This document shows positions 50,610 to 51,771 of a DNA stretch of 64,000 nucleotides, piece by piece. The DNA is from Candidatus Poribacteria bacterium (GTDB taxonomy: Bacteria; Poribacteria; WGA-4E; WGA-3G): NCBI GenBank assembly GCA_003635315.1, contig PYJD01000042.1, positions 1-64,000 of the forward strand, read 5' to 3'. Both the position numbers and the translations under genes were made by a program. How positions within the stretch are numbered: the first letter of the stretch is position 1; each line of letters opens with the position of its first letter. The notes under the pieces are model-generated. The model searched no databases, was not told the origin of the DNA, and worked only from the letters and a program-made list of their open reading frames with translations.

Positions 50610-50886
50610 GTAGGTCGGGTAAAGGTACGAAACCCATAGGTGTCAACTTAAGGAATTTCTAATCATATTTGATTGATTTATACCCTCTTGTAGGTCGGGT
50701 AGAGGTACGAAACCCGACGAATTCCATACGCGGATTCGGCGTTGATTTGGACATGAGGCGCTTATATATATAAATACAGGAAATGTTGGACTTCACCTAC
50801 GATTCAACACAACCTACAAGGACATGCAATCACTAAGTTGACACCTATGGATAGAGGTACGAAACCCATAGGTGTCAACTTAAGGA
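50610..50886. repeat. Repeat cluster (GGTACGAAACCC family)
   Basis: Three copies of a GTACGAAACCC block (about 50625, 50705 and 50857). Two share GTAGGTCGGGTA(A/G)AGGTACGAAACCC, and two share CCCATAGGTGTCAACTTAAGGAAT. The second carries a GGATTCGGCGTTGATTTGG tail that recurs at 55890 and 56023. Non-coding. Confidence 0.7.
50835..50881. repeat. Perfect 16-bp inverted repeat
   Basis: AAGTTGACACCTATGG (50835-50850) and its exact complement (50866-50881) around a 15-nt loop containing GGTACGAAA. A candidate RNA hairpin or recognition site. Confidence 0.65.
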
Positions 50887-50910
50887 ATCTTGTAATGCAG
50901 AAGACCTCCT

Positions 50911-51077
50911 TAGTTCCTTTGGGGTGGAATGTTTATAGACAAACGTTGATCTCATCCTCTTTAGTTCCGTAGGAACGGAATGTCTATAGAAGTACGAATT
51001 CACACAGTCTTGAGTTCCATCGGAACGGAATGTCTATAGAAAAATGCTAACCGGCACACTTGAGTTCCGTAGGAACG
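50911..51077. repeat. CRISPR-like array with exact 50-bp period
   Basis: Four units start at 50911, 50961, 51011 and 51061, exactly 50 bp apart. The consensus is about 30 bp (T(T/G)AGTTCCGTAGGAACGGAA then TGTCTATAGA), with a GTTCC-GTA-GGAAC palindrome. Three unique 20-bp gaps (50941-50960, 50991-51010, 51041-51060) separate them. The first unit is degenerate; the last is partial. Not a standard CRISPR (short gaps, no cas genes in the window). Confidence 0.75.
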
Positions 51078-51261
51078 ACATAACCAATAAACATATCGTC
51101 ACTACGGTGATTGAAAACCATCAAAATTGATTTATCTGTAGATACCACTTTTGGGTATCAACAGATAAATCCCTATTAACCTAAGACACTTAAAACGAAA
51201 TAACTCTGCCTATGGGTACGACGTACTTGACACCCCGCAAAAAGTATGACAGAATACCCGT

Positions 51262-51771
51262 ATGCCGCGCAAAAACAAAATCCTCAACATTGGTGATGCT
51301 GCCCCATCATTCTCCCTGCCGTCCCATAGAAGACAAGCAGTCTCCCTCACATCCTACCGCAATAATCAGCACATAATATTAGCCTTTTTTAGGGGTACAT
51401 GGTGACCAAACAGTCGCCGTCAGTTGACTGCCATACAGGAACATACAGACGATTACGCACTATACAATGCAACCCCAATAGCTATTGCTGGACAATGGCC
51501 CCGAGAACTACGCGGATATGCAGAACGCAACGGAATTACCTACCCACTCTTAGTTGACAAAGACCGAAAAACTATAAAAAACTATGGTGTCTACCATTGG
51601 CTTAGCTTTGAGGCATATAATATCGCAAGACCTGCAACCTTCATTATTGACATAAAAGGCATTATACAATATATGTATATCGGATCACACCAATTCGACT
51701 TAGTAGATCAAACTGAAGTTATAAACTACCTAAAGTCCTTAAATACAGACAACGGACTGCAGATTTTATAG
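51262..51771 (+). CDS. Redoxin (AhpC/TSA-like), probable selenoprotein with TGA at codon 48
   Basis: 170 codons, open apart from a single TGA at 51403-51405. Translation with Sec48 reads GDAAPSFSLPS (11-21), then LAFFRGTW-U-PNSRRQL, where relatives have Cys at this position (RGTWCPxCRRQ). It continues as a normal thioredoxin fold (NATPIAIAGQWPRELRGY, ITYPLLVDKDRKTIKNYGV, RPATFIID). The second Cys position is Ser 51. The sequence on both sides of TGA stays intact and in frame, so selenocysteine is much more likely than decay. A small hairpin follows the TGA. No selA, selB, selC or selD is in the window. Confidence 0.85.
51411..51430 (+). promoter_or_regulatory. Candidate bacterial SECIS hairpin
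   Basis: CAGTC (51411-51415) pairs with GACTG (51426-51430) around a 10-nt loop, starting 5 nt after the in-frame TGA. A bacterial SECIS is expected just downstream of UGA, but the stem is short, so this is tentative. Confidence 0.35.

Follow-up and report, generated by a model that had tools for sequence, protein, structure and literature searches.

A redoxin gene of Candidatus Poribacteria, located at 51262–51771 on the forward strand of the 64,000-nucleotide stretch analysed here (the window), very probably encodes a genuine selenoprotein in which a thioredoxin-type loop is carried on a peroxiredoxin-like fold and which, we infer, would react with the help of an external thiol. That its in-frame TGA at 51403–51405 encodes selenocysteine (Sec) we regard as nearly certain on the comparative evidence set out below; we hold the proposed mechanism with clearly less confidence. 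The gene adds a well-supported and deeply conserved predicted selenoprotein to an uncultured, sponge-associated phylum. The features referred to in the text are as follows.

51262–51771, + strand: predicted selenoprotein gene, AhpC/TSA-type redoxin of 169 residues with Sec at 48 and a terminal TAG (frame reading; orthologues in 44 of 59 genomes)
51403–51405, + strand: TGA codon, predicted to be read as Sec (residue 48; TGA in 43 of 44 close orthologues)
51400–51414, + strand: active-site motif W-U-P-N-S (UxxS), from the orthologue and homologue alignment
51412–51414, + strand: Ser51, at the place of the resolving Cys in homologues outside Poribacteria (alignment)
51416–51431, + strand: putative SECIS hairpin, with arms 51416–51421 and 51426–51431 and apical AGTT 51422–51425
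51412–51426, + strand: synonymously constrained stretch, codons 51–55, enclosing part of the putative hairpin
51631–51633, + strand: Pro124 in NIARPATF, opposite the conserved Arg116 in the AhpE alignment
51424–51771, + strand: TTG-start truncated ORF of 115 aa, reported by a Sec-unaware caller (ORF list)

A redoxin gene interrupted by a single TGA codon

The frame at 51262–51771 begins MPRKNK, runs through RGTW, the TGA and PNSRRQL, and ends in LQIL before a TAG at 51769–51771; the TGA is its only internal stop. Three residues past the TGA stands a Ser, and cysteine is absent from the window copy. The sequence-only reading had described a single TGA inside an otherwise intact redoxin frame, and this was confirmed, since one PF00578 (AhpC-TSA) domain spanning residues 10–138 runs across the codon (E = 1.5e-26 with the TGA translated as Cys and 8.2e-25 as X; 93.2 and 87.6 bits, respectively, against a cut-off of 26). 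When the window was scanned for TGA-interrupted frames with at least 35 codons before the TGA, at least 45 after it and little overlap with other ORFs, three were recovered, and only 51262–51771 was protein-like before and after the stop, the other two having been assessed by visual inspection. A standard gene caller would report a shortened gene, as had been anticipated, the naive ORF starting at TTG 51424; the loss is of 54 residues rather than the 48 first supposed.

Relatives were sought in 59 genomes, with a close orthologue defined by E below 1e-60. Some match was present in 57 genomes and a close orthologue in 44: the genome of the window itself, 16 of the 17 others of its genus, all 17 in the rest of the family and 10 of 14 in other families of the order; none occurred in the 10 genomes from elsewhere in the class. 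A scan of a named genome collection gave 472 relatives, of which the best 80 were retained; the titles of the first 54 of these are all Candidatus or uncultured Poribacteria, and the remaining 26 loci lie outside the phylum. A scan of viral contigs found no relative, and 107 plasmid records contained a match, every one of them below 60% identity.

The active-site loop lacks a resolving cysteine

Poribacteria orthologues read GTW-U-PNSRRQL, with C replacing U in the Cys form, whereas a Cys stands three residues past the site in all 26 homologues outside Poribacteria (among the best 80 of 472), a residue that neither search pattern demanded. Because Ser closes the W-U/C-P-N-S motif of the orthologues where the outside homologues have Cys, the protein is best described as a seleno-redoxin without a resolving Cys. 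In a 50-row alignment no Cys column other than that of Sec is invariant, and a by-eye tally of the 54 named Poribacteria copies among the best 80 of 472 gives 28 with no Cys at all. Of six remoter homologues fetched from the order and class, five have UPxC and one has CPVC. The conserved Ser supports the earlier suggestion that Sec would act without a second Cys. We consider the chances about even that the orthologues form a Poribacteria-specific, essentially cysteine-independent family, in which Ser replaces the resolving Cys while several families of one order have retained Sec; if so, the protein would be a Sec-only catalyst fully dependent on an external thiol, with a chemistry closer to that of glutathione peroxidase than to that of a peroxiredoxin.

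An AlphaFold2 model of the protein (pLDDT 90.2) and its structure matches, of which Bcp4 and AhpE are the closest, place it within the peroxiredoxin fold. AhpE, the 1-Cys peroxiredoxin of Mycobacterium tuberculosis, is 26–28% identical to it, but the active-site residues differ: Sec48 aligns with the Thr of TxxC, Ser51 with the peroxidatic Cys and Pro124 with Arg116, so that the sequence alignment shows neither the TxxC (or TxxU) motif nor the active-site Arg of canonical peroxiredoxins. Pro124 is presumably the cis-Pro of a thioredoxin-type site. Sec-containing peroxiredoxins of the TxxU type belong to the same fold family; where they have T the window protein has Sec, and where they have U it has Ser. 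Thiol-disulfide oxidoreductases of the ResA/TlpA type also gave profile and fold matches, and ResA has a GTWC-type loop; the window protein, however, is without the second Cys and fits peroxiredoxin-like chains better. Judged by sequence, then, the protein combines a peroxiredoxin-like fold with the active site of a thioredoxin-type seleno-redoxin that has no resolving Cys, and it falls outside the canonical peroxiredoxins.

Selenoproteins with related features have been described. In the available portions of two sources, Prx-like thiol:disulfide oxidoreductase selenoproteins are tabulated under PF00578 as UxxC/UxxU, and a separate AhpC/TSA (peroxiredoxin-like) UxxS entry is given under PF13911/cd02970, with MDX2448127.1 as its example (PMC9312934, PMC13188914). 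As tabulated there, the former share the Pfam family of the window protein and have Sec at the thioredoxin-type first position, whereas the Poribacteria orthologues have Ser second; their motif is UPNS, or CPNS in the Cys form, and neither UxxC nor UxxU occurs. The UxxS entry, as far as the table describes it, has the motif in common and is likewise peroxiredoxin-like; the window protein is set apart from it by Pfam match rather than by sequence comparison. The full window protein had no match to PF13911 up to E = 10, and the C-terminal piece alone scored 12.7 bits against a cut-off of 27. The SelL-related and PrxU NCBIfam families also fell below their cut-offs (NF040769, 32 of 120 bits; NF040737, 22 of 270 bits). 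Prx-like UxxC selenoproteins, and UxxS in an arsenate reductase, are described in the accessible parts of two other papers (PMC1088965, PMC2398784). UxxS selenoproteins, one of them Prx-like, have thus already been tabulated, and the Poribacteria redoxin is a clade-specific variant.

The product would be a small, probably cytosolic redoxin with a W-Sec-Pro-Asn-Ser loop. Most likely its selenol would attack an oxidised substrate, for which peroxide is our first choice, and would then form a selenenic acid or a mixed selenosulfide, from which an external thiol would regenerate Sec. Because residue 51 is Ser instead of the resolving Cys, no intramolecular selenosulfide can form between it and the selenol. 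A different function, conceivable if somewhat improbable, is that the selenoprotein serves mainly in thiol-disulfide exchange by a monothiol mechanism, such as the release of glutathione or other small thiols from proteins, and not in peroxide reduction. The thioredoxin-type W-U-P-x-S loop and the Pro at the position of the AhpE Arg would suit such a role, and CxxS proteins with thiol-exchange roles are known in other folds; against it, the neighbouring genes, which we take to be HemW-like (upstream) and RibD-like (downstream), give no hint of a partner or substrate. It is unlikely that the selenoprotein works like a canonical 1-Cys peroxiredoxin whose peroxidatic residue, at its customary position, is Sec, because the alignment misses both the peroxidatic position and the Arg, even though the fold and the nearest solved structures, including the 1-Cys AhpE, are those of peroxiredoxins; peroxidase activity could be achieved by another geometry.

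Conservation of the TGA codon

Sec at residue 48 is the reading best matched by the codon found at this site in relatives. Among the 44 close orthologues it is TGA in 43 and TGT (Cys) in one (L048). The sequence-only reading had held that other stops or frameshifts here in close homologues would favour a pseudogene or sequencing error; no TAA, TAG or frameshift occurs at the site in any of the 44. The 54 Poribacteria loci among the best 80 of 472 have TGA in 53 cases and TGT in one (L093). The two genome sets overlap and many loci are the same record, L093 having the same coordinates as L048; merged, their 98 entries reduce to 62 distinct sequences, 61 with TGA and one with TGT. The 26 loci outside Poribacteria have a Cys codon in 22 cases and TGA in four, a Cys share that is biased because one of the two search patterns demanded Cys at the first position. 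Relatives had been predicted to have Cys where the window gene has TGA, and this holds for the L048 orthologue and for a Brevibacillus protein with RGTWCPNC (L134).

Codon substitution patterns were consistent on the two sides of the TGA, with dN below dS on both in the pairs for which both rates could be computed, dS being saturated in three comparisons. A single stop codon can arise in a metagenome-type assembly, and 4 of the window's 41 long ORFs do stop at TGA; but the proposal that this TGA is an ordinary stop, marking a pseudogene or a sequencing or assembly error, is rejected as extremely improbable, since 43 of 44 orthologues from separately assembled genomes have TGA and never TAA or TAG, purifying selection persists past the codon and the genome has Sec machinery.

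The four TGA-containing loci outside Poribacteria (L135, L138, L140 and L143, with titles naming Acidobacteria, Acidobacteriales, Acidobacteriota and an uncultured actinobacterium) have the codon at the same site, within UPNC or UPHC. Sec at this position is therefore not confined to Poribacteria. One genome of the window's own genus, G014, is 96% complete and without a close orthologue; together with the one Cys orthologue, this indicates that neither the gene nor its Sec is indispensable. A natural Sec redoxin without a resolving Cys and its natural Cys version would offer a comparison pair for asking why selenium is kept.

Selenocysteine machinery and other candidate selenoproteins

The window is contig C42 of a genome of 4.33 Mb that is listed as 90.2% complete. 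A search for selA, selB, selC and selD had been proposed as a check, and it was successful: profile matches, all above curated cut-offs, were obtained for selB (368 bits, in an open frame of 654 aa), selA (599 bits) and selD (366 bits), and the one tRNA-Sec above cut-off (76.5 bits, anticodon tca) adjoins selB on contig C41. The selD gene of this genome has an in-frame TGA of its own. Genome-wide reassignment of TGA to Trp or another residue, which an in-frame TGA by itself would suit, has next to no likelihood and is rejected, because TGA terminates 4 of the 41 window ORFs of at least 200 aa, in which TGG is used 208 times, because the Sec site is Cys and never Trp in the TGT orthologue and the 22 outside homologues, and because tRNA-Sec and SelB are present.

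Five other redoxin genes of the genome have in-frame TGA codons: L015 (G000:C10:281211), L016 (C30:14832), L017 (C10:282446), L018 (C34:116999) and L020 (C31:66614). The motifs among them include WUPFC, GUPHC, GUGAC and YUPVC, and L020 contains two peroxiredoxin-like domains in tandem with a TGA in each (TGGU and GRSU). With the window gene and selD, the genome thus has at least seven candidate selenoprotein genes. Six selenoproteins is the threshold for calling an organism selenoprotein-rich in the accessible part of PMC5029168, and by that figure this genome would lie above it. For a sponge microbiome with symbiont bins from various phyla, SelA and SelB are reported in most of these bins (PMC5649159, as available in part). 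A search of mainly open-access literature found no paper linking Poribacteria with selenoproteins; Poribacteria may carry several Sec redoxins per genome, and the phylum goes unmentioned in the accessible portions of the selenoprotein papers found.

A putative SECIS hairpin downstream of the TGA

Reading of the UGA as Sec by the ribosome would involve SelB, tRNA-Sec and, probably, a hairpin that follows the codon closely. Bacterial SECIS hairpins have a G in the apical loop. Nucleotide-level comparisons make a SECIS element for the window gene likely but not proven. Looking for a conserved stem-loop after the TGA had been suggested as a check, and the outcome is mixed: a constrained stretch and a conserved helix geometry speak for such an element, whereas covariation favours neither side and the hairpin of the window copy itself is weak.

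Codons 51–55 (SRRQL), a run picked out after viewing the per-codon constraint list, show stronger synonymous constraint than any other of 64 five-codon runs, with a mean ratio of 0.39. Gln54 is CAG in 61 of 61 sequences, Leu55 is TTG in 54 and TTA in seven, and Arg52 and Arg53 are each CGC or CGT in 60 of 61; over codons 49–60 the synonymous constraint gave a Mann–Whitney p of 0.063. Folding energy relative to synonymous recodings was lowest, among 37 windows, at codons 45–56 and 49–60 (mean z of −1.10 and −1.04). A six-pair helix around AGTT, or around a five-base loop one step on, forms at least five pairs in 59 of 61 sequences, a statistic that allows two registers and concerns a helix selected on the very set of related sequences in which it was counted; when the codons were recoded synonymously 200 times, the share of such sequences averaged 18% and never exceeded 30%. 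This geometry was also tried at 142 other places in the gene, and the highest share, at one of them, was 79%. In its preferred register the helix is paired in 78.7% of cells, as against 18–73% when slid.

Covariation of the preferred helix was at shuffle level, though pair 18/25 varies (C-G, U-G, U-A and A-U). The window copy can form five of the six pairs, with one C-U mismatch; taken alone it folds no better than shuffles (z = −0.42), and the strict hairpin rule does not detect it. Set at 4 bp, that rule detects a hairpin in 27 of 61 orthologues, as opposed to 18% at other positions of these genes; set at 5 bp, it does so in 11 of 61, as opposed to 4%. At 5 bp it was satisfied by four of the eight in-frame TGAs tested in the genome, against 323 of 14965 control positions (2.2%). 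In the redoxin genes L015–L018, six-pair hairpins without a mismatch, each with a GTT or GGT loop, lie 22–27 nt past the TGA. It counts against the preferred hairpin that RNAalifold, on a 105-nt alignment of 44 sequences, gave a different helix, which spans the TGA; this helix was not adopted because its pairs are nearly invariant and so carry little information. A register at 9–14/24–29 pairs in only 19% of cells.

Downstream of its TGT codon, L048/L093, the only Cys orthologue, still folds into a hairpin, and another genome of its genus (L053) retains TGA. The persistence of the hairpin is consistent with a recent change from Sec to Cys.

Gene neighbourhood and upstream repeats

The downstream, RibD-like gene was found in at least 32 of 43 relative loci and the upstream, HemW-like gene in at least 10 of 43, flanks being short or cut. 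The intergenic region upstream of the redoxin gene contains two sets of repeats. Three copies (65–95% alike) of a 40-nt repeat (GGRTARAGGTACGAAACCC...) lie at 50617–50888. At 50907–51091 a 34-nt repeat that contains a palindrome (GTTCCGTAGGAAC) occurs in four degenerate copies, at spacings of 51, 50 and 50 nt; their layout is CRISPR-like, but they are intergenic and lie immediately upstream of the redoxin gene.
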